Source: Clostridia bacterium (GTDB lineage: Bacteria > Bacillota > Clostridia > UMGS1883). Taken from it: a DNA stretch of 64,000 nucleotides. Every line of letters starts with the position of its first letter. Position 1 is the stretch's first letter. The notes under the pieces are model-generated. The model had not been told where the DNA came from and ran no database searches. It saw only the letters and a list, made by a program, of their open reading frames with translations. The stretch spans positions 1 through 64,000 of the forward strand of contig JAFVPB010000028.1 in the NCBI GenBank assembly GCA_017505525.1, read 5' to 3'. This document shows, one piece after another, positions 2,683-20,564 of the stretch. The position numbers were made by a program, and so were the translations under genes.

Positions 2683-2836
2683 TGATTTTTCCTCCAATTC
2701 TATTTTCACTAAGTTTTTTCTTTAACTTGATACCATTCTTGATTCTTTCAGAGTGACTTTTTCTCTGAATTTCCAGAACAAGTTCGACTATCTTCTGTAC
2801 CTCAGTACAGTCTGTAATATGTAAATCTTTAAGCAT
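2669..2836 (-). CDS. Small basic hypothetical protein, 55 aa
   Basis: The start at 2836 is set by GGAGGAAG just upstream; earlier in-frame codons lack a ribosome-binding site. The protein begins MLKDLHITDCTEVQKIV and is rich in Lys and Arg in its second half (KSHSERIKNGIKLKKK). It overlaps the ArdC-like gene by 8 bp and the winged-helix gene by 14 bp, so the three are co-transcribed and probably translationally coupled. No family recognised. Confidence 0.65.
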   Translation of the reverse strand: MLKDLHITDCTEVQKIVELVLEIQRKSHSERIKNGIKLKKKLSENRIGGKINEKN

Positions 2837-3704
2837 TTGTGCTTCCTCCAATAATTTCATTATTTTTATTGATATTAAGTACAAAATCTACTGCTTTTTG
2901 AGCCTTGTTACTCGCTGACATTACCAAACGTTCGTCATTTTCAAGAGCTTCTAACCACCCTTGTATGTACGCCGCTGAGTTTTGGAAGGCATCTGGTGTC
3001 TCTACATTGCAGTGATGACACAATGCCGCAGCACCAACCTCAGCAATCAATTCTTCTTTTGCGTACCTTTCTCTGTCATTTTGCAGAGCACCTCTCACTA
3101 AACGGTTTAGTCTGTCCTGATGCCCGGTTGAGTGGATAATTTCGTGAAATGCTGTGCTGTAGTAATCAGCAACATCTCTATACTGCTCTATTGACGGAAT
3201 AGTAATTGAATCTTCTCTGTGGTTGTAAAATGCCCTGTCAGATAGAATTGTATTTAAACCCACACCACTTGTTGATATGTAGTCGTTAATGACTTTTTCA
3301 GCATCTTCACAAGGTGCAAGAAATTCCAACTGTTCTTCCAAACTAAGCGGCTTTATACCTTCTGTTTGGTTAATGTGGAACACATAATAAGTATGGAAAA
3401 TGGGAAACGACTTATCCTCTTCATCCTCGTTTTCACTTCTCTTTGTACAAATCTTGTAGAAGAATACCGGTTTTGCCCTCGAACCTGCTTTGACACGTCC
3501 TCCCAGAGCATTTATTTGATTAAATGTAAGATACTCACCGGGTTCAGCGAGCAAAAGCTGATTTGCCAAACTATAAGGTCTGCCCATAGCTCTGCTGTAA
3601 GCACCATTCCATGTACCAAACCAAGGTTTGTGCCAAGGAATCACACCATTTCTGAGTTCTTCTATAAGCCTATCTGTAATCACACTAAAAATATTTATAC
3701 TCAT
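2829..3704 (-). CDS. ArdC-like antirestriction protein with zincin domain
   Basis: About 291 residues. The N-terminal part (INIFSVITDRLIEELRNG, VIPWHKPWFG, YLTFNQINALGGRVKAG) is the ArdC single-stranded-DNA-binding domain (DUF1738). The C-terminal part carries the zincin metallopeptidase motif HEIIHSTGH with a downstream glutamate (ELIAEVGAAAL). Proteins of this family travel on conjugative and integrative elements and protect incoming DNA from restriction. The start at 3704 is preferred because GAGG lies about 9 nt upstream, although an in-frame ATG exists at 3719. It heads the operon leading towards the recombinase gene and lies downstream of the cytosine methyltransferase gene, from which a perfect hairpin separates it. 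Confidence 0.88.
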   Translation of the reverse strand: MSINIFSVITDRLIEELRNGVIPWHKPWFGTWNGAYSRAMGRPYSLANQLLLAEPGEYLTFNQINALGGRVKAGSRAKPVFFYKICTKRSENEDEEDKSFPIFHTYYVFHINQTEGIKPLSLEEQLEFLAPCEDAEKVINDYISTSGVGLNTILSDRAFYNHREDSITIPSIEQYRDVADYYSTAFHEIIHSTGHQDRLNRLVRGALQNDRERYAKEELIAEVGAAALCHHCNVETPDAFQNSAAYIQGWLEALENDERLVMSASNKAQKAVDFVLNINKNNEIIGGSTNA

Positions 3705-3730
3705 AGTCTTAAGCCTCATTTCTTTTTCTT

Positions 3731-3793: not shown

Positions 3794-4915
3794 TTAAATG
3801 CTACCTGCATTTGCTTCATCAATTACTCTTTTTAGAGATAATTCCAATGCTCCGATGCCTGTGAAAGTTGAAATAATCTTGACATCTTCAAAGAGATAAG
3901 GCATAGCCTTGAATAACTCTTTAAGAACCAGATATGCAACATCCACAACAATACTATTGCCTGCCTGACGATATAACGCAGTCTTAGGACAAACACTCGC
4001 TGCCTTTTCATATTCCTCATCAGAGAAACCCATAAATCGATATGCTTCACGAGGTGTAAGGCGTCTTATGTAGTGTTTTTTGCCCTCATGAGTGTCAATA
4101 GTCTGTAAAACAATAGTGCTGGGATTTGATGCTCTTAACGCAGGTACATACTTTATGCCAATCTGATGGTCATTCCAACCTGATGTACATTTAGGTCTGT
4201 AAATATTCTTATCAGAATGAAGAATAGCATCAAGTTCATCATAAATATGAGCCTTAATATAAGGAGATATTGTTTCATCCACAAGAACATCGCTAGTTGG
4301 TTCATCAAGATAATCATTAACAGAGGGAAGATTCTTAACCTTAGCGGGAAAACGGAATCTACCATTATTAAGGTCTTTACGAATAGCGAGAAAAATCACT
4401 CTTTCTCTGTTTTGTGGTACGCCGTAGTCTTTGCTGTTCATCTTCTGATAGTACACGTCATACCCACAATTCTTGACCTTTTCAGTAAAAAGATTAAAGG
4501 AATTGATGAACCTTTTGCTGAGAAGGTTTGCTACATTCTCAAATATGGCAAATTTAGGTCTAATCGTCTGAAAGATGTTGAACCAATATACCATAAGAGA
4601 GGACGCAGTCTTGTTTAAGTCTGTTGAACCACACTCAGGACAAACAGCATCGTCAATGGTATCTAACGTCAATGGGTCAAATGAATGCCCACAGCATTGA
4701 CATACCCAGCGGCTTCCACTTAAATTTCCGGCAGCGGAAAAATTAGTACAAGGTGGACCGCCAAACAAAACATTAACAGGATGTTTCAGTTCCGATGGTT
4801 TCACCTTGGAAATATCACCAAGGTTTTGTTCTGGAACTACATTATGTATTTTTACGGTTGCTTTCACCGCGTTGGAATCTATTTCCGAGAAATAGATAAG
4901 TTTATAGTTGTTCAT
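3794..4915 (-). CDS. Circularly permuted C5-cytosine DNA methyltransferase
   Basis: 373 residues. Transfers methyl from SAM to cytosine C5. The catalytic motif IV is GGPPCTNFSAAG (Cys56), motif VI FENVANLL (about 125-132) and motif VIII QNRERV (about 168). The target-recognition part is followed by motif IX/X (RQAGNSIVVDVAYLVL). Motif I, the SAM loop normally at the N-terminus, is at the C-terminus (STFTGIGALELSL, about 349-361), while the protein begins directly at motif II (IYFSEIDSNAV). The order is therefore permuted. A zinc-ribbon-like insert (CQCC...CPEC, about 72-95) follows motif IV. The start has GGAGGG about 8 nt upstream. It probably protects the element from host restriction or pairs with the adjacent adenine-type methyltransferase; no partner endonuclease is adjacent. 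Confidence 0.9.
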   Translation of the reverse strand: MNNYKLIYFSEIDSNAVKATVKIHNVVPEQNLGDISKVKPSELKHPVNVLFGGPPCTNFSAAGNLSGSRWVCQCCGHSFDPLTLDTIDDAVCPECGSTDLNKTASSLMVYWFNIFQTIRPKFAIFENVANLLSKRFINSFNLFTEKVKNCGYDVYYQKMNSKDYGVPQNRERVIFLAIRKDLNNGRFRFPAKVKNLPSVNDYLDEPTSDVLVDETISPYIKAHIYDELDAILHSDKNIYRPKCTSGWNDHQIGIKYVPALRASNPSTIVLQTIDTHEGKKHYIRRLTPREAYRFMGFSDEEYEKAASVCPKTALYRQAGNSIVVDVAYLVLKELFKAMPYLFEDVKIISTFTGIGALELSLKRVIDEANAGSI

Positions 4916-4947
4916 TGAGATTACCCTCCAAATCGTTAAATTTAGAA

Positions 4948-5042
4948 GGTAAAGCGCTTTACCGAGTACAAGGGGTGATCATGTCCCTTGCTTCTATCTT
5001 TTCTATGTTAAATCAACATTTGAGGCAGCTAATCTCAAATGT
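4948..5042. promoter_or_regulatory. Cluster of three inverted repeats between methyltransferase genes
   Basis: The 190-bp gap between the two methyltransferase genes holds a perfect 16-bp palindrome (GGTAAAGCGCTTTACC, 4948-4963), a CAAGGG/CCCTTG hairpin (4969-4990) whose loop contains TGATCA, and a 9-bp hairpin ACATTTGAG/CTCAAATGT (5016-5042). None has a clear T-run. They could be operators or a structured leader for the downstream cytosine methyltransferase gene. Confidence 0.5.
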
Positions 5043-5105
5043 GATGTTTTAAGGGTTTGTATAGAGCCATTACGAGGTTATCCCTTGAACTGTAATGGCA
5101 GTCCA

Positions 5106-6527
5106 TCAAGCAATGTCATCAAATTGATATGGCGGTTCTTCCAGTAAAAAGTCTTTCATATCACAGATTTCCGGTGTTTCTCTTTCAAAAACAGAAAGAT
5201 TTTCAATGACTTTTGCAGAATGTTGAAACTTATCTGGGTCAGCTTCATATGCTATGAAGTGTCTGTCATGATTAAGGCAACATTCCAAGGTTGTTCCATA
5301 TCCACCAGAGCAGAATACAGTTTGTCCCGGAAGTGTAGAGTTTTCAAGCAATCTTTCCATAAGAGGATATGAAATGCTGTCCTTATTAGGTTTGTTCATA
5401 TTACGAGTATCCTCGTAGAACTTTTGCTTAGTATGATAATTACCGTATAATTTAACTCCACCTTTTCTGAAAAACATCAGATGCTTTGTCCCAGTGTTCT
5501 GATAGTTCTCGATAATGTCATACTTATAGTCCTGTTCAGCAAAGTGCATCAGTATTTCAGGGAACTGAGAATCCTCCATCATAATATAAAGATTAGGCTT
5601 CTCCTGCTTTGCAATAACACCCTCGATAAAATCAAAAGGAATTGTTTCCTCGTTACAAACATCAAAATACGCCATATCAATGCTACCTTCTTCGATAGTT
5701 TCAAGTATTTCGGGAGCATCTGCATACAAAACATCTCTGTCTGGCAATAATGCTTTCGGAGAATATGTGTATTCAGGGTGTTCTGCCAATGCCTTTGCCA
5801 CTCTTTTCTCGCAGATAGCGTGATACTTAGGCATCAATTCAAAACCTATGAATCTTCTGCCACTTTCAATCGCTGCCACTGCTGTGCTACCAGAACCCAT
5901 GAATGGGTCTAAAACAAGGTTGCCCTCATTAGATGCCGCCTTTATGAAATCAATCAACTGATTTGTGTGCTTCACCGTAGGATGATAGAACTCATCAGTT
6001 TTCTTGATGTTGGGTCTTGATGCTATGTAATGGTCTGTTGCCAGATTAAGTTCTGCAAGCATACCTTTTTCACATACATAAAGAATGTACTCGCACGAGC
6101 TTACATAGGTATTGTTACAAAGAGGGGGACTGTTTCTCTTCGCCCAAGAAAGCAACTTGTACTCTACATTTTTATCTTTGAAATATTTAAGATAAAAATG
6201 AAGTTGTTTTGAGGAACAGTAGAAGAAACAGTTGATTCGCTTTAATACACGAACTATTTCATCAAGTATCGCTGTATCAAACCCGTCACACATATACGCA
6301 ATCTCTTTTAAATAGGTAGAACTATTTAAACCTTTGATTGGCTTTCCCATTTTTGTGCTCAGCTCATAAGGAGCGTCTGTGACGCAGATGTCTATTGAAT
6401 TGGAAGGGATACATTTCAGCCCTACCGCACAGTCCATGTTGTATATGGTATTTGTTTCTAAAATTTGACCCATGCCACGGAACTTGTTCCAAAAAGCATA
6501 GTCTTGCATTATATTGAGTTTTTTCAT
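5106..6527 (-). CDS. DNA N6-adenine/N4-cytosine methyltransferase with degenerate second half
   Basis: About 473 residues. The first half is a complete beta-class amino-methyltransferase: catalytic motif IV TDAPYE (about 50-55), then motif I LDPFMGSGSTAVAA (about 206-219) and RRFIGFELMPKY. The second half repeats the same fold in decayed form (DVLYADAPEI, IDMAYFDVC, then FCSGGYGTTLECCLNHDRHF, IAYEADPDKF) without a credible catalytic motif, so it may act in target recognition or dimer-like pairing. The ATG at 6527 is chosen because AAAGG is 8 nt upstream; the ATG at 6536 is too close to it. It is transcribed from a promoter facing left in the 6.65-kb divergent region. It may be an orphan methylase or the modification part of a dismantled system. 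Confidence 0.85.
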   Translation of the reverse strand: MKKLNIMQDYAFWNKFRGMGQILETNTIYNMDCAVGLKCIPSNSIDICVTDAPYELSTKMGKPIKGLNSSTYLKEIAYMCDGFDTAILDEIVRVLKRINCFFYCSSKQLHFYLKYFKDKNVEYKLLSWAKRNSPPLCNNTYVSSCEYILYVCEKGMLAELNLATDHYIASRPNIKKTDEFYHPTVKHTNQLIDFIKAASNEGNLVLDPFMGSGSTAVAAIESGRRFIGFELMPKYHAICEKRVAKALAEHPEYTYSPKALLPDRDVLYADAPEILETIEEGSIDMAYFDVCNEETIPFDFIEGVIAKQEKPNLYIMMEDSQFPEILMHFAEQDYKYDIIENYQNTGTKHLMFFRKGGVKLYGNYHTKQKFYEDTRNMNKPNKDSISYPLMERLLENSTLPGQTVFCSGGYGTTLECCLNHDRHFIAYEADPDKFQHSAKVIENLSVFERETPEICDMKDFLLEEPPYQFDDIA

Positions 6528-6631
6528 AAGGTTCATCCTTTCATCAATAAAATATTTGTTGTTTAAGACTAAACTTGAAATAGCGAATGTTCAAATAAAT
6601 ATACTGGATAAATTCAGTATTTATTAAATGA

Positions 6632-8517: not shown

Positions 8518-9087
8518 ATGAGAGTTGGGTACATTAGATGCTCGACAGTTGTTCAGAATGAGTCTCGTCAAGTTGTCATGTTGCAGGAGCAAAATGTGGA
8601 AAAGATTTTTATGGACAAAGCAAGCGGAAAGAATACGGACCGTAAAGCATTTAAAGAAATGATGTCCTTCGTAAGGGAAAAAGACACTGTTATCTGTGAA
8701 AGCATTTCGAGAATTGCGAGAAACACACGGGATTTGTTGTCCATCATTTCAGAGCTTACAGAAAAAGGAGTTGAATTTATAAGTCTTAAAGAAAATATAG
8801 ACACCACAACTCCACAAGGCAGATTTATGTTGACGGTATTCGCAGCCCTTGCGGAATTGGAGAGAGAAAACATTTTAGAAAGGCAACGCGAGGGAATTGA
8901 GATTGCCAAAGCAGAAGGTAAATACAAAGGACGCAAACCTATTGCTGTTGATAATTTTGAGGAAGTATATTCCAAATGGAAGTCAGGAGAAATAAAAACG
9001 GCAAGGGACGCTATGAGAATTTTAGGAGGCATCAAACCTAATACTTTCTATCGCAGAGTAAAAGAGCATGAAGCATCTATCGGTTAA
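8518..9087 (+). CDS. Small serine recombinase (resolvase/invertase)
   Basis: 189 residues, the usual length for Tn3-type resolvases and DNA invertases. The catalytic serine is Ser9 in RVGYIRCSTVVQNESRQ. ISRIARNTRDLL and FMLTVFAALAELERENILER form the active-site and dimer helices. A C-terminal DNA-binding helix-turn-helix follows (SGEIKTARDAMRILGG, NTFYRRVKEH). The start is preceded by GAAAGG. It is a second, independent site-specific recombinase inside the element and is far smaller than the integrase at 317-2047. It may resolve multimers of the excised circle or be a relic of an earlier insertion. The ~260 bp upstream could hold its resolution site, but no clear repeats were identified. Confidence 0.92.
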   Translation: MRVGYIRCSTVVQNESRQVVMLQEQNVEKIFMDKASGKNTDRKAFKEMMSFVREKDTVICESISRIARNTRDLLSIISELTEKGVEFISLKENIDTTTPQGRFMLTVFAALAELERENILERQREGIEIAKAEGKYKGRKPIAVDNFEEVYSKWKSGEIKTARDAMRILGGIKPNTFYRRVKEHEASIG

Positions 9088-9109
9088 GAGGGTAATTCAC
9101 CCTCTTTTC
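9087..9109 (+). terminator. Terminator of the resolvase gene
   Basis: AGAGGG, a short loop and CCCTCT, then TTTTCC. It begins in the resolvase stop codon. Confidence 0.7.
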
Positions 9110-9572
9110 CTCTTTTTGAAGAATTGCTTTAAGATCGTTCTATTATCATATTTTTTGAGATTTTAGTATGATTTATCTTGATTTTTGCATGAAAATGATT
9201 TTAGGACAATTTATTTTGATTTTTTACATTTTTTCTAATTTTATTTCTTTTATTTTTGAGCTTATTTTAGTATGTATAAGAGGTAACGCAAAACGCATTA
9301 TTTTCAGTATCAAAAAAAGGAGATATAAAGGAAAAATATAAATAAGATGGTGTAAATAAATACTGCTAATGGTCGCCCGCAAGGATAAATTTATATAGAT
9401 GCTAATGACAGTCATTAAAATAAGAATAACCTTTCTGTTGCAAAAAACACGTCCTTTCAACTCTATCTAATCCAAATCTGTTTCATCATAATGACACCCT
9501 ATCATTCGTAAGACAGTCATTAGCAAAAGTGAGATCGAAGAATTATTCTTTGGTCTCATTTTCTTTTGAGCA
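9110..9572. other. AT-rich intergenic stretch with a perfect palindrome
   Basis: No convincing gene. The clearest structure is the 15-bp palindrome TAATGACAGTCATTA (9403-9417). Its half GACAGTCATTA recurs at 9512-9522, and GCTAATGAC (9401-9409) has an inverted partner at 9516-9524. These could be recombinase or regulator sites. One minus-strand hydrophobic frame here lacks a credible start and was not called. Confidence 0.4.
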
Positions 9573-9601
9573 GAAAAAAAGAACCGCTGGGATGCGGTTC
9601 T
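9573..9601 (-). terminator. Terminator of the mazF-like gene
   Basis: On the minus strand AGAACCGC, a 6-nt loop and GCGGTTCT, then seven T. It overlaps the stop codon of the MazF-like gene. Confidence 0.85.
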
Positions 9602-9977
9602 AAGCGAATGCCGGAACAAGTCCAAAACTAATCATTATTTTTTCATTTACCTTTTCCATTATGTCATCACCAAGGGATGCGACCTTTTCCAGCAGTTGAG
9701 ATTTCTGAATGGTTATAATCTGCTCAAATAGAACAATACTATCGGTTTTAAGATTACATTCTTCAGCTTTAAGCTCAAGGTGAGTTGGAATTGGTTTCTT
9801 TTTTCTTGACGAGGTTATAGGTGAAATCATAATAACCTCAGAATACTTGTTTTGTAAATTGTTTCCGCATACCACGCATGGTCTGATTCCATGTTGAATA
9901 CTGCCTTGCCTCGCACTACCGGACCCCAGATTGACATAATAAATGTCTCCGCGCCTGATATATGTAGTGTCTGTCAT
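9600..9977 (-). CDS. MazF/PemK-family endoribonuclease toxin
   Basis: 125 residues. MazF family: the N-terminal RRGDIYYVNLGSG and the conserved turn GIRPCVVCGNN, then VIMISPITSS and the DSIVLFEQIITIQKSQL segment that carries the active-site region. MazF toxins cut mRNA at short motifs. No antitoxin gene is adjacent: the 59-bp gap upstream is too short and the downstream side is a terminator. The upstream neighbour on the same strand is the primase gene. The start has AAAGGGG 8 nt upstream. It could be neutralised by an antitoxin elsewhere or be a partly inactivated stability gene. Confidence 0.88.
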   Translation of the reverse strand: MTDTTYIRRGDIYYVNLGSGSARQGSIQHGIRPCVVCGNNLQNKYSEVIMISPITSSRKKKPIPTHLELKAEECNLKTDSIVLFEQIITIQKSQLLEKVASLGDDIMEKVNEKIMISFGLVPAFA

Positions 9978-10036
9978 GGTTAAAAACCCCTTTCATTAGT
10001 GAAATTTTATTATGATTTCATCTTATAGAAAGTAGT

Positions 10037-11719
10037 TTAATTCCCTTTTCTGACATATAGCGTCGGGAAACCTTTGCTTTCAATTTCGTACTGATTTTTT
10101 ATATCGTTATTGGTCTGTAATCGCTTTAAATTCAGTCTTTCCATTATAAGCGGTAATTGATGAACAAATATAGTTTCACTGAATCTCAAATGATTTTCCC
10201 TATAATGCTCTTTCAGGGTTTTTAGAGTAAAGTACCCCTTGGCATCCAAAAGATGCTCGATATTGGAAATCAGGAACTCATCTGGTTCGTGAGTTCTTTT
10301 GCCTTTTATCTGTGGAAATACACTGTCTGCAACGTCCTTGCCAAAGGCATTATATACAGTGTCGTAGGTAAAGTCAGTCTTTCTTATATTCTTTTCCTTA
10401 ACAATTTTTGCAATATCATCCGAATGTCTGAGTTGTTGCAGGTCATAAATAGGCAGCGAATATACATTGATATGCCTTAACTTATCACCTTGAAACGCCT
10501 TAATCATTTTACGGTACTCCGGAGAAATATTTGGGTTATTCATATCAATTTTTCGTATTAAATCAAGCATGGCAAAATAGCTAATATCTTCTGTTGTGGT
10601 TTTTCTGTCGCTACGGTATAACTGATTTGCAAGATGTCCGGTAGATATGCTGAAGAGAAAACCATTGGCATCTGCATATTGAAGTGTATCAAGTGCCGCA
10701 TAGTGAAGATAGCGGAGCGTCTGTAAGTATCGGTACGATACGGAATATAAATCTTGATGGGAATGCTTAATATCATCGTTTATAACATGTATATTGTCCA
10801 TTAACAGATTTCTGTATTCTTCATTTTCTTTATATATAATACCAAGGTCAGAACATATTTTCTCTATTGCCTTATGACGCGAAAGCTGATTTTTCTCCTG
10901 CACAACCTGAATGATATTGCCAATTTTGAATGGACAACTCGAAGAACGACATGAATATAACCAAGTCCCACCATCTGCTTTGAACACACTTGCAGAAGGA
11001 TGCTTATCAATATGACAGATACAGCAGAAACTATTCGGGTTATCAGATTTAAGATTATAAAATTCTTTTAAATATGCAAATAAATCAACCTCTTTTGTAA
11101 GATGATGAAAAACATCTTTATAATTTGTGAAGATTTTGGCATCTGTTCTGCTTATGGCATCTTCTTCAAAATGATGCTGAAAGTCAAAAACGGTATAATA
11201 CAGATGCTCTAATTTCAAGATGTCGCAGTAAAAAGGAGGATAACCTTCCTTCATCCATACTGTACAGGGTAAACGCAGTTGCTTCGCCGGGTTTTTTACA
11301 TTAACATCGGCATCAAATTTTTCAACAAGGTAGTTTTCGATGCGTCTCCATTGTGAAGGAGTAGGAGCATCTTTTATAAACCACAGAACTTGAAATCCAT
11401 TTCTCGTTTGTACGATAGCTGAAGGCGATGGCTGAAATCGACGAAGCTCCTTCAATTTTTGGTCTTTATAACGGGAAACGACATCTAAATCAAAATAATT
11501 GTCATGTTCATCTCTACCACAGTCAAGATCGATGAAATACGCATTAAATTGTGTTATATCCGCATCTTTTGTACCACCTATATTGGGAATATAGTGAAGC
11601 TCCTCAACACCGTTGTATTCATTTATTTTTGAAAATTTAATTATTTTTTTATTTTTGATAAAACAGATAGGTTCTTTGTTGTGTAATAACCTTAAAAACT
11701 CTTTAAGAGTATAATTCAT
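10037..11719 (-). CDS. Primase / replication protein (RepB-primase-like with CHC2-type zinc finger)
   Basis: 560 residues. The N-terminal domain resembles archaeo-eukaryotic-type primases of plasmids: the acidic metal motif FNAYFIDLDCGRD (about 58-70), then VQTRNGFQVLWF (about 103-114) and QLRLPCTVWMK. It is followed by a CHC2-like zinc module (CCICHIDKHPSASVF, then LYSCRSSSCPFKIGNIIQVV, about 232-275). The C-terminal half is helical and unrecognised. Such proteins prime replication of plasmids, prophages and integrative elements, so it may copy the excised circle. A sigma-A promoter lies at 11770-11798. No SD is close to the ATG at 11719; a 13-codon TTG-started leader with a good SD overlaps it and may drive coupled translation. 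Confidence 0.78.
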   Translation of the reverse strand: MNYTLKEFLRLLHNKEPICFIKNKKIIKFSKINEYNGVEELHYIPNIGGTKDADITQFNAYFIDLDCGRDEHDNYFDLDVVSRYKDQKLKELRRFQPSPSAIVQTRNGFQVLWFIKDAPTPSQWRRIENYLVEKFDADVNVKNPAKQLRLPCTVWMKEGYPPFYCDILKLEHLYYTVFDFQHHFEEDAISRTDAKIFTNYKDVFHHLTKEVDLFAYLKEFYNLKSDNPNSFCCICHIDKHPSASVFKADGGTWLYSCRSSSCPFKIGNIIQVVQEKNQLSRHKAIEKICSDLGIIYKENEEYRNLLMDNIHVINDDIKHSHQDLYSVSYRYLQTLRYLHYAALDTLQYADANGFLFSISTGHLANQLYRSDRKTTTEDISYFAMLDLIRKIDMNNPNISPEYRKMIKAFQGDKLRHINVYSLPIYDLQQLRHSDDIAKIVKEKNIRKTDFTYDTVYNAFGKDVADSVFPQIKGKRTHEPDEFLISNIEHLLDAKGYFTLKTLKEHYRENHLRFSETIFVHQLPLIMERLNLKRLQTNNDIKNQYEIESKGFPTLYVRKGN

Positions 11720-16376: not shown

Positions 16377-16472
16377 AGATGCAAAAATCTATTCTAAAAC
16401 ATTGACTTTTTGATGCTTTTATGGTAATATTATTATAGAAAATTGCATATAGATGCAAAAATCTATTTTAAA
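16377..16472 (+). promoter_or_regulatory. Promoter flanked by direct repeats, ahead of the ATPase and R-M genes
   Basis: TTGACT (16402-16407), a 17-bp spacer and TAATAT (16425-16430) form a good sigma-A promoter. A near-identical 22-bp repeat beginning AGATGCAAAAATCTATT occurs at 16377-16398 and 16451-16472, flanking the promoter upstream and downstream. Each contains AGAT-N5-ATCT dyad symmetry. The layout suggests looped or double-site repression. Confidence 0.7.
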
Positions 16473-16484
16473 GTGGTGAATGAT

Positions 16485-17780
16485 ATGGAAATTAAAAGAG
16501 ATTTATATTTGAATAAGCTGATTAGTCTCAAACACAATGGACTAATCAAGGTTATAACAGGTATCAGAAGATGCGGAAAGTCATATCTTTTGAATGATAT
16601 TTTTTATAATCACCTTTTGGAAAGCGGTGTAGATGAAGGTCATATCATCCGCTTTGCATTTGATTCCGGTGATGATTTGGACTTGATTGGTGAAAGTATT
16701 ATAGATATTGAAAAGAAGAACAGAAAGGTCAATCCGGAAAAATTTATGGCATTTGTACGCTCTAAAATTACAGATAATGAAATGTATTATCTTCTTTTGG
16801 ATGAAGTACAGATGCTTGATTGCTTTGAAACTGTTCTAAATGGTTATCTTCGCAAGAAAAATATGGATGTGTATGTAACCGGTAGTAATGCAAAGTTTTT
16901 GTCAAAGGACATTATAACTGAATTTGCAGGGCGTGGTGATGAAATTCATATGTACCCATTGAGCTTTGCGGAGTTTATGACCGCTTATAACGGCGACAAG
17001 TATGAAGGTCTGTCAGAATACATGCTTTATGGCGGTATTCCTTTGGTTGTATTAAGAGAGGGACAGGAGAACAAAGCATCTGCACTTGAAAATCTTTTCA
17101 GTGAAATTTATGTAAGAGATATTCAAAAGAGAAACAAGGTCAGAAACATTGGAGAACTGGAAGATTTGCTCAATATAGTATCTTCTGCCATAGGTTCTTT
17201 AACCAACCCTGAAAAGCTGCGTAAAACCTTTAAATCAGTTAAAAATTCTAAAATAACATCAGCAACCATAAAGAAATATCTTGATTTTCTAGAAGATTCA
17301 TTCTTGCTTGAATCAGCACAAAGATATGACATCAAAGGTAAAGCATATATAGAAACTCCTAAAAAATATTATTTTTCTGATATGGGACTGCGCAATGCCC
17401 GTATAAATTTCAGACAGTTTGAGCAGACACATGCCATGGAAAATGTTATTTATAATGAACTCAGAATGCGTGGGTACAAGGTAGATGTAGGCGTAGTTCC
17501 GATTAGTGAAAAAGATGAAGATGGCAAGTCTGTAAGAAAACAGTTAGAGGTTGATTTTATCTGCAATCTTGGTTCGATGAAATACTACATCCAGTCAGCA
17601 TTTGCAATGCCAGATGAAGAAAAGAGAGCACAGGAAATCAGACCTTTTAAGAAAATTAATGATTCATTCAAAAAGATTGTAATAACAAAGGACATTGTTC
17701 CATCTTACTATGATGAAAACGGCATCTTAACAATGAACATATATGATTTTCTGTTAGATACTAAAAGTTTAGAAAAATAA
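16485..17780 (+). CDS. AAA+ ATPase with C-terminal DUF4143
   Basis: About 431 residues. Walker A TGIRRCGKSYLL (about 25-36), Walker B YYLLLDEVQML and a sensor-like VTGSNAKFLS, then HMYPLSFAEFM and the C-terminal DUF4143 domain ending in a restriction-endonuclease-like segment (LEVDFICN). Proteins of this type are common in gut bacteria and archaea; most have unknown function, and some were proposed to be nuclease-linked. The ATG at 16485 is chosen as the conserved MEIKRDLYL start. It precedes the MmeI-like gene by 18 bp and so shares its transcript. Confidence 0.85.
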   Translation: MEIKRDLYLNKLISLKHNGLIKVITGIRRCGKSYLLNDIFYNHLLESGVDEGHIIRFAFDSGDDLDLIGESIIDIEKKNRKVNPEKFMAFVRSKITDNEMYYLLLDEVQMLDCFETVLNGYLRKKNMDVYVTGSNAKFLSKDIITEFAGRGDEIHMYPLSFAEFMTAYNGDKYEGLSEYMLYGGIPLVVLREGQENKASALENLFSEIYVRDIQKRNKVRNIGELEDLLNIVSSAIGSLTNPEKLRKTFKSVKNSKITSATIKKYLDFLEDSFLLESAQRYDIKGKAYIETPKKYYFSDMGLRNARINFRQFEQTHAMENVIYNELRMRGYKVDVGVVPISEKDEDGKSVRKQLEVDFICNLGSMKYYIQSAFAMPDEEKRAQEIRPFKKINDSFKKIVITKDIVPSYYDENGILTMNIYDFLLDTKSLEK

Positions 17781-17798
17781 ACAATAGGAGATATTATT

Positions 17799-20564
17799 AT
17801 GCGTGATACAGAGCAAAAGGCAGCGGCAAAAGCCTTTTATGAATATTGGAAAGATAAAGGCTATGAAAAAGGCGAAAGTCAGCCCTTCTGGTTAGAGCTT
17901 TTACAAAATGTGCTTGGAGTTGAGAATCCGGCACACTACATAAAATTTGAAGAGCAAGTACATTTAGACCATACAAGTTTTATTGATGGTTTTATTCCTG
18001 CTACGCACGTTTTGATTGAGCAAAAAGGAAAAGGCAAAGATTTAAGAAAACCCATCAAGCAGTCAGATGGCACACTGCTCAGTCCGTACCAACAGGCAAG
18101 ACGGTATGCGTTTGAATTGCCATATTCACAGCGTCCCCGTTGGATAATCACCTGTAATTTTGAAGAATTTTTGGTTTATGATATGGAGCATCCTACGGGA
18201 GAACCGGAAACGATTAAGCTCTGTGATTTACAAAAGGAATATTACAGACTTCAATTCTTGGTTGATGAAGATAATGACAATATTCAAAAGGAAATGGAAA
18301 TTTCCATCAAAGCGGGTAATCTGGTAGGCGTATTATATGATGAAATCTTAAAACAGTACATAAACCCTGAAAGTGAAGAAACATTAAAAAGTTTAAATCA
18401 GCTTTGTGTAAGACTTGTATTTTGTCTTTATGCTGAAGATGCCGGAATATTTGGCGGACATGGTAAATTCCATAATTACATAAAATCATTCTCGGCAAAA
18501 GATATGAGAAGAGCACTGATTGACCTTTTCAAAGTTCTTGATACTAAGGTTGAGGACAGAGACCCATACCTTGATGAACAGCTTGCAGAGTTCCCGTATG
18601 TAAATGGCGGTCTTTTTGCAGATGAAGATATTGAGATACCGCATTTTACAGATGCTATTCGTGATTTGCTTTTGAAAAATGCAAGTGAAGAGTTTGACTG
18701 GTCTGCTATCAGTCCGACTATTTTTGGAGCAGTTTTTGAAAGCACATTGAATCCCGAAACAAGACGCTCCGGAGGTATGCACTATACTTCTATCGAAAAT
18801 ATACACAAGGTTATAGATCCTTTGTTCCTTGATGAATTGAGAGATGAGCTTGAAGAGATAAAGCAAGTTAAGGTAGCAAAAACAAGAGAAGCAAAGATTA
18901 ATGCTTATCGTGAAAAACTCTCAAAAATCACTTTTCTTGACCCTGCCTGTGGCAGTGGTAATTTCCTTACAGAAACTTATATTTCACTCAGAAGACTTGA
19001 AAATGAAGCAATAGAGGTTATTACACAAGGTCAGATGCTTCTTAACTTCGGTAATCTGATTCAGGTATCAATCAGTCAGTTTTATGGCATCGAAATCAAT
19101 GACTTTGCATGTACGGTTGCAAAAACAGCATTATGGATAGCAGAAAGTCAGATGATGAAAGAAACAGAAGTCATCACAAATATAGATTTAGACTTCTTAC
19201 CGCTTAAATCTTATGCAAATATTGTTGAGGGCAATGCTCTGCGTATAGACTGGGAATCTGTTGTACCTAAAACTGAATTAAACTATATTATGGGAAATCC
19301 GCCATTTATAGGTCAAGCAATGAGAACCAAAGAACAGGCAAATGACATGCAGGATGTTTTTGCACCTTCTACTGCCGGTGGTAAATTAGATTATGTAGCT
19401 GGGTGGTTTAAAAAAGCATCTGATTTGATGAAAAATACCAATATTGAAACAGCTTTTGTTTCCTCAAATTCAATATGTCAAGGTGAATCCGTAAATCTGT
19501 TGTGGGAAATGCTTTTAAATGATGGTACGTATATTAATTTTGCTCATACTACATTCAAATGGACAAGTGAAGCAAAAGAGAAGGCAGCGGTTATGTGTGT
19601 AATAGTTGGTTTTTCTCGAATGGAAAGAAAAATAAAACAATTATATGTAGGAGAGCAATATAAAGAAGTTAAACAAATAAATGGCTATTTAAAAGATGCT
19701 CCTAATGTATTTATCAAGAACCGCAGTAAGAGCATAAACAAAGGTACTGCAAAAGTAGTTCAAGGTAGTCCCCCAGCAGATGATGGCAGATTACTTTTAA
19801 CAATTCAGGAACGTGATGAATTATTGACAAAGTACCCCGAACTTGATAGTGTGATAAAACCATTTATAGGAAGTCGTGAGTTTATCAATGATACATCATA
19901 TCAAAGATATTGTTTTTGGTTTGAAAATGAAACACCTCATAAATATCAGCATATACCGGAACTGATAGAAAGGTTTAACTATGTACGGGAGTACAGACTA
20001 AAAAGTCCGGTTGATCGTATTCAGAAAACAGCAGACAAACCATATTTATTTACTCAAAATAGACAACCTGATACAGAGTATCTAATCATTCCGCGTGTAT
20101 CATCTTCAACGAGAAGATATATACCAATCGGCTTTTTACCAGCAGATGTTATTGCAAGTGATTCTGCGGTCTTGGTTTATAATGCTACTTTGTATGATTT
20201 TGGCATTATATGTTCAAATGTGCATAATGCGTGGATGAGAACTATTGCGGGAAGATTGAAAAATGATTATCGTTATGCCCCTTCGGTATATTACAATTTT
20301 CCTTTCCCTGATATTTCCGATACAGAAAAGGAAAAAATATCTAAAACAGCACAAGCAATTTTAGATGCCAGAAAACTTTATCCAGACAAGAGCTTGGCGG
20401 ATATGTATGGCGAAGCAATGTACTTGTACCCGGAATTACTAAAAGCGCATCAAATGAATGATCGTGCTGTATGGGAAGCATACGGAAAAAGTTGGGACAT
20501 TTCAAGCGAAAGTGATTGCGTAGCATATTTGATGAAGATGTATCAGGAATTGACAAAGGAGTGA
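17799..20564 (+). CDS. MmeI-like (type IIL) single-chain restriction-modification enzyme
   Basis: 921 residues, very close to MmeI in length. The N-terminal nuclease domain has a D-x10-E-x-K motif (Asp63, Glu74, Lys76 in DGFIPATHVLIEQK), near the MmeI spacing. A helical spacer follows, then an N6-adenine methyltransferase domain with motif I DPACGSGNF (Asp381) and motif IV NPPF (about 500-503). The target-recognition region lies after about 620 (SRSINKG-like loops, YQRYCFWFENETPH, PRVSSSTRRY) and a C-terminal helical tail follows. One polypeptide would cut at a distance from its site and methylate one strand. GGAG is 7-8 nt upstream of the start. It probably defends the host or the element against foreign DNA. 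Confidence 0.88.
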   Translation: MRDTEQKAAAKAFYEYWKDKGYEKGESQPFWLELLQNVLGVENPAHYIKFEEQVHLDHTSFIDGFIPATHVLIEQKGKGKDLRKPIKQSDGTLLSPYQQARRYAFELPYSQRPRWIITCNFEEFLVYDMEHPTGEPETIKLCDLQKEYYRLQFLVDEDNDNIQKEMEISIKAGNLVGVLYDEILKQYINPESEETLKSLNQLCVRLVFCLYAEDAGIFGGHGKFHNYIKSFSAKDMRRALIDLFKVLDTKVEDRDPYLDEQLAEFPYVNGGLFADEDIEIPHFTDAIRDLLLKNASEEFDWSAISPTIFGAVFESTLNPETRRSGGMHYTSIENIHKVIDPLFLDELRDELEEIKQVKVAKTREAKINAYREKLSKITFLDPACGSGNFLTETYISLRRLENEAIEVITQGQMLLNFGNLIQVSISQFYGIEINDFACTVAKTALWIAESQMMKETEVITNIDLDFLPLKSYANIVEGNALRIDWESVVPKTELNYIMGNPPFIGQAMRTKEQANDMQDVFAPSTAGGKLDYVAGWFKKASDLMKNTNIETAFVSSNSICQGESVNLLWEMLLNDGTYINFAHTTFKWTSEAKEKAAVMCVIVGFSRMERKIKQLYVGEQYKEVKQINGYLKDAPNVFIKNRSKSINKGTAKVVQGSPPADDGRLLLTIQERDELLTKYPELDSVIKPFIGSREFINDTSYQRYCFWFENETPHKYQHIPELIERFNYVREYRLKSPVDRIQKTADKPYLFTQNRQPDTEYLIIPRVSSSTRRYIPIGFLPADVIASDSAVLVYNATLYDFGIICSNVHNAWMRTIAGRLKNDYRYAPSVYYNFPFPDISDTEKEKISKTAQAILDARKLYPDKSLADMYGEAMYLYPELLKAHQMNDRAVWEAYGKSWDISSESDCVAYLMKMYQELTKE

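Follow-up and report, generated by a model that had tools for sequence, protein, structure and literature searches.

A C5-cytosine DNA methyltransferase with a natural permutation between motifs I and II, and its relatives on mobile elements and phages

The gene at positions 3794–4915 (minus strand) of the window, i.e., the whole 64,000-nucleotide stretch of Clostridia bacterium DNA analyzed here, encodes a full C5-cytosine methyltransferase that is naturally permuted between motifs I and II and that, as an orphan enzyme on an integrative element, probably marks the DNA of this element against host restriction. The open reading frame starts with ATG and consists of 373 codons and a stop. The protein belongs to the C5 family according to its match to Pfam DNA_methylase (PF00145; E = 1.4e-52), with a score of 179.6 bits against the curated cut-off of 22 bits, and the HaeIII, HhaI and MpeI methylases were among its top solved-structure matches. 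Motif order does not define this family, since permuted members are known. A ribosome-binding site, GGAGGG (4924–4929, minus strand), was read from the sequence 8 bases 5' of the ATG, and the in-frame stretch preceding the ATG is open for about 21 codons and then closed by a stop; no motif I was found in this upstream region or as a missed exon. Therefore, the gene ends are most likely real.

All features of the gene lie on the minus strand. The chain starts with the motif II strand (MNNYKLIYFSEIDSNA), its N-terminus being located directly before motif II (FSEIDSNA, F9–A16, 4868–4891; E11, D13 and A16 invariant). Motifs III (GDISKV, G33–V38, 4802–4819; D34 invariant), IV (GGPPCTNFS, G52–S60, 4736–4762, with the catalytic Cys56; G53, P55, C56 and S60 invariant), VI (FENV, F125–V128, 4532–4543; E126, N127 and V128 invariant) and VIII (QNRER, Q168–R172, 4400–4414; Q168, R170 and R172 invariant) follow sequentially. 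Between motifs VIII and IX lies the variable region with a single short target recognition domain (TRD; 4070–4348), followed by the conserved motif IX (RRLTPREAYRFMGF, residues 284–297, 4025–4066) and motif X (YRQAGNSIVVDV, residues 315–326, 3938–3973; G319, N320 and S321 invariant). The linker MPYLFEDVKI (3875–3904), in which M338 to F342 are invariant in the five bacterial members, then leads from the old C-terminus to the old N-terminus, and the SAM-binding loop of motif I (STFTGIGALEL, residues 349–359, 3839–3871) ends 14 residues before the stop. The canonical order from I to X is thus absent, and motif X precedes motif I, as defined for the permuted enzymes of type H. A preliminary description of this DNA had already placed motif II at the start, motif I near the C-terminus after motifs IX and X, and PPC, ENV and QNRER between them in the usual order, and this layout was borne out by the motif order itself, by its conservation and by the rotation scan described below. 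The catalytic PC, ENV and QxRxR motifs and the SAM-binding FxGxG motif are all present and invariant among the homologues.

When the protein was rotated in 3-residue steps and scored with a profile built from 12 canonical enzymes, the optimum was a start at residue 343, which raised the score from 239.3 to 254.0 bits and widened the profile match from model positions 36–341 to 15–339, i.e., to almost the whole profile. Placing residues 339–373 in front likewise improved the match to Pfam DNA_methylase, which then scored 188.9 bits instead of 179.6. The rotation peak was found at the equivalent place in 15 of the 22 intact permuted sequences and elsewhere in L010, L014, L061, L071, L076, L088 and L107, with a gain over the natural order of less than 3 bits in six of the latter. 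Within the C-terminal motif I, residues S349, F351, G353, G355, A356 and E358 do not vary among 16 aligned homologues. Relatives from other genera (L007, L008, L009 and L010; alignment identity 40–45%) share these gene ends and the C-terminal motif I, and the same break was observed in 17 intact genes of viral contigs. Because the ends of the relatives, the invariant residues, the rotation scan and the Pfam gain all agree, the C-terminal FxGxG is more than a chance occurrence, and the permutation between motifs I and II, as judged from sequence comparison, is real and conserved.

In the AlphaFold model (16 sequences; pTM 0.81, mean pLDDT 79), strand 4–10 opens the chain, and a C-terminal strand (345–350) and helix (356–369), corresponding to β1–αA of motif I, are predicted within a block having pLDDT 89–94 over residues 341–370; only the TRD, approximately 209–266, is poorly modelled. 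The best PDB matches of the model in Foldseek were the HhaI, MpeI and HaeIII methylases, with a TM-score of about 0.55 to HhaI, which probably understates the true match because the Foldseek alignment is sequential while the chain is permuted. A further SAM loop close to the N-terminus, which would have spoken against the initial reading, was not found. By homology, the two chain ends would join into one SAM pocket: the motif I strand and helix (345–369) would pack beside the motif II strand (4–10), rebuilding the usual Rossmann SAM pocket, and Cys56 of GGPPC would attack the flipped cytosine, as in HhaI.

The catalytic loop carries a zinc-ribbon insert (4631–4702, minus strand; C72, C75, C92 and C95), which had been noticed earlier as lying directly after the PPC loop and is likely real. 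The four cysteines are invariant in the five bacterial members, and the assignment depends mainly on them because the Pfam Zn_ribbon_8 match (E = 3.9e-5, 24 bits) is below the curated cut-off of 34.4. The zinc ribbon was rejected as a hallmark of the permuted group, being present in SPbeta MtbP (L121), L118, L036 and L060, all of canonical order, and absent from the permuted L014, L016 and L076.

The permuted gene is part of a minus-strand run comprising genes for an N4/N6 DNA methyltransferase (5106–6536; Pfam N6_N4_Mtase, E = 3e-29), the permuted C5 enzyme, an ArdC-type antirestriction protein (2829–3719; Pfam ArdcN and MPTase-PolyVal; phrog_7245 anti-restriction protein, E = 9.9e-66), an HTH protein and the large serine recombinase of the element (317–2047; Pfam Resolvase and Recombinase; phrog_95 integrase). 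The rest of the element (8518–11719) contains a resolvase (8518–9087), a PemK/MazF-type toxin (9600–9977) and a primase (10037–11719). The second half of the N4/N6 protein resembles a degenerate methyltransferase without a DPPY-type motif, and no obvious antitoxin gene alongside the toxin gene was seen in the list of open reading frames. A syntenic element (L131), from a different family within the class, has in common with this one not only the permuted gene but also the HTH gene, the N4/N6 methyltransferase, two unknown open reading frames, the resolvase, the PemK toxin and the primase; the N4/N6 methyltransferase adjoins the permuted enzyme there as well (L009/L131; 31–33% identity). Additionally, two relatives (L129 and L130) lie among conjugation genes, which in L129 are those for a MobL relaxase, a TraG coupling protein and an AAA/TraG-type ATPase, and another relative (L132) has a tyrosine integrase at a distance of about 1.8 kb.

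Protection against restriction by phage methyltransferases is documented (PMC4190342). The occurrence of one kind of cargo on different mobile vehicles, the adjacent ArdC and the lack of an adjacent restriction enzyme, as judged from the adjacent genes (ArdC, N4/N6 methyltransferase, HTH and recombinase), point to self-protection. The role of the permuted enzyme is thus likely self-methylation of the integrative element; most likely, the orphan enzyme would mark the element's DNA against the restriction enzymes of its hosts. There is a lesser chance that an active permuted methyltransferase serves gene regulation or a restriction-modification pair and not antirestriction. Orphan methyltransferases are able to regulate genes, and a Type IIG restriction-methyltransferase is encoded further along the contig, at 17799–20564 (PADLOC PDLC03598, 1142 bits); this enzyme is taken to be outside the element, however, ArdC and another methyltransferase adjoin the permuted gene in place of a restriction enzyme, and the relatives on conjugative elements and phages have different neighbours. 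The Type IIG gene directly follows an ATPase-like gene matching the candidate defence family PDC-S01 (16443–20564 of the window).

It is rather improbable that the permuted gene has become an inactive relic, or that its product was recruited as a DNA-binding protein. The terminal branch of the window gene in the core tree of homologues (188 columns) is fairly long, 0.77 changes per column, so the function could be changing, and the TRD region is of low model confidence; at the same time, all catalytic and SAM-binding residues are kept across distant members, and the frame is open and preceded by a good ribosome-binding site. The explanation of the motif order as an assembly artefact, or by a partner gene or a motif I exon overlooked upstream, is practically eliminated: nothing was found in its favour in an assembly fragmented into 71 contigs, and it is refuted by independent relatives, as independent genomes and many phage contigs share the gene ends, the upstream region has no motif I and the C-terminal motif I is conserved. 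Since these ends are shared, no upstream motif I has been lost through a sequencing error, a concern raised in the preliminary description.

Exact peptide patterns for close relatives gave one distant match in the genome collection and none in the viral collection, and relatives were gathered instead by profile and whole-genome searches. Five of the 391 sampled genomes of the class, the source genome included, were positive at E ≤ 1e-45; in the phylum-wide sample (398 genomes, E ≤ 1e-40), the permuted gene was found in the source genome only, the other two matches being canonical. IMG/VR yielded 72 loci in one scan and 36, an overlapping set, in another, and there are 22 intact permuted genes that differ in sequence, the window gene counted. 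The permuted family is rare in bacterial genomes and common in certain phages; the original remark on the rarity of permuted C5 enzymes accordingly stands for the former and fails for these phage relatives. Among the matches examined in the named phage and plasmid collections, none was permuted, all being canonical or tandem. Matches extending beyond motif X in Klebsiella phages and Arthrobacter citreus resembled further permuted genes and were rejected: the one in the Klebsiella phage runs into a separate annotated gene, and the Arthrobacter gene is a canonical tandem. The Latilactobacillus match is canonical and truncated.

Among the phage relatives, which were scanned for runs of at least 7 G or C, the 15 intact genes contain no such run, and the other, mostly split, genes contain 81 runs in 61 kb versus 54 in 265 kb of flanking DNA, a 6.5 times higher density. 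Split relatives with poly-G/C tracts of 7–11 are L017–L023, L028, L029, L033, L034, L038–L040, L045, L048, L049, L055, L064–L066 and L073 (gene mostly at about 4000–6500). Comparison of L064 and L065 revealed no mismatch over 9.6 kb and six indels, every one in G/C runs, and these two contigs and L066 are otherwise identical, differing only in tract length; in the pairs L017/L067, L040/L042 and L045/L069 (1, 0 and 18 mismatches, respectively), the indels again all fall in G/C runs. Small target-recognition-like units are located between the runs, in different frames. This pattern is suggestive of slipped-strand phase variation acting on target recognition, of which no description was found in the literature searched. 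The window gene has no such poly-G/C runs. In L049, eight G tracts occupy 1.4 kb (4705–6046), with none elsewhere in 8.7 kb, and TRD-like units in different frames are linked by overlapping ATGA/TAATG stop-start codons. Two permuted relatives have other additions: L071 (3974–6745) has an apparent intein at the catalytic cysteine (GGSPC-FIAGSKVYTEHG...HTYTVNNAIVSN-CQDFS), and in L088 (3974–5440), motif I is followed by target-recognition-like units, which form the extreme C-terminus.

In the core tree, the window gene and L009 group together (support 97/94) within a clade of permuted genes, in which the canonical L036 and L060, having a zinc ribbon alike and a close core sequence, are also nested. 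The permuted L107 has a core that groups with the canonical L125 and L108, whereas its motif II–III part resembles the permuted members. A single clade of all permuted genes was rejected by the AU test (p = 3e-5; p = 0.007 without L107), with moderate branch supports and with groups defined by gene topology and not by the tree; a single origin of the permutation was rejected on this basis. Therefore, either there was more than one change of topology or segments were exchanged by recombination, and reversals, recombination or several origins would be needed to explain the core tree.

The permuted form would most likely have arisen when two methyltransferase genes in tandem fused in frame and their outer ends were then lost. 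Possible present-day steps of such duplication, fusion and truncation are offered by Bacillus phage CM1 (L139:1501–1800), in which two consecutive canonical C5 genes share a frame and are separated by just one stop codon (RIKEETN, stop, MEELRVVELFAGYG), by dcm on the Arthrobacter citreus plasmid pAciIRM, with two canonical units in one frame, and by L107, in which an apparent old start (MNVISLFSGIGAFEKAL) is placed ahead of the C-terminal motif I. A broader scheme, for and against which we see the balance as about even, is that a mobile-element C5 lineage switches repeatedly between the canonical and the I/II-permuted form via tandem-gene fusion, that its members in large phages gained target-recognition arrays with poly-G/C tracts, slippage in which would toggle the enzyme or its specificity, and that the window gene represents a compact member that does not switch.

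In 2018, 20,677 REBASE entries were screened for a motif X located ahead of motif I; the 27 natural permuted C5 enzymes thus identified have their cut in the variable region without exception and are of one permutation type, and the authors of this survey suggested that evolution favours breaks leaving both domains intact (PMC5944983). M.BssHII, M.Alw26I, M2.Eco31I, M.Esp3I and M2.BsaI (type H) are, like the window enzyme, natural permuted C5 methyltransferases with motif X before motif I, but they are broken at the variable region that separates the two domains (PMC5944983), and the window enzyme is broken within its SAM-binding domain, between motif I and motif II; the break point is indeed unlike that of M.BssHII, as the preliminary description had it. 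Active variants with cuts elsewhere have been engineered, including cp35M.MpeI and cp33M.SssI, whose cuts are nearest the N-terminus (PMC5944983). The same paper suggests that SAM binding becomes weaker when the chain is cut in this part of the protein. These two enzymes, broken near the N-terminus ahead of the II–III break and active in cells, are like the window layout, their cut presumably falling in the I/II interval (type A), to judge from the ordering of types; they are laboratory-made, whereas the window enzyme is natural. No description of a natural I/II-permuted C5 enzyme was found in the open-access literature, subscription papers and REBASE lying outside this search, and since the 27 known enzymes are all cut in the variable region, natural I/II permutation appears undescribed in the literature searched. 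The window family, which has many members and is cut within the SAM-binding domain, offers a counter-example from nature to domain-preserving breaks, provides new natural scaffolds for the engineering of split or permuted methyltransferases, and makes the origin of permuted methyltransferases testable through present-day candidate intermediates, namely genes in tandem within one frame, units in tandem within a single gene, and the permuted genes.

The multi-target C5 enzymes of the SPbeta/phi3T group of phages carry several target-recognition-like units. The phage relatives of the window enzyme are also multi-unit, whereas the window enzyme itself contains a single short one. SPbeta MtbP (L121), which was the Bacillus phage enzyme examined, as well as L036, L060 and L118, shares with the window enzyme the family and the zinc ribbon after motif IV; unlike the window enzyme, these proteins are of canonical order, with motif I at the N-terminus.
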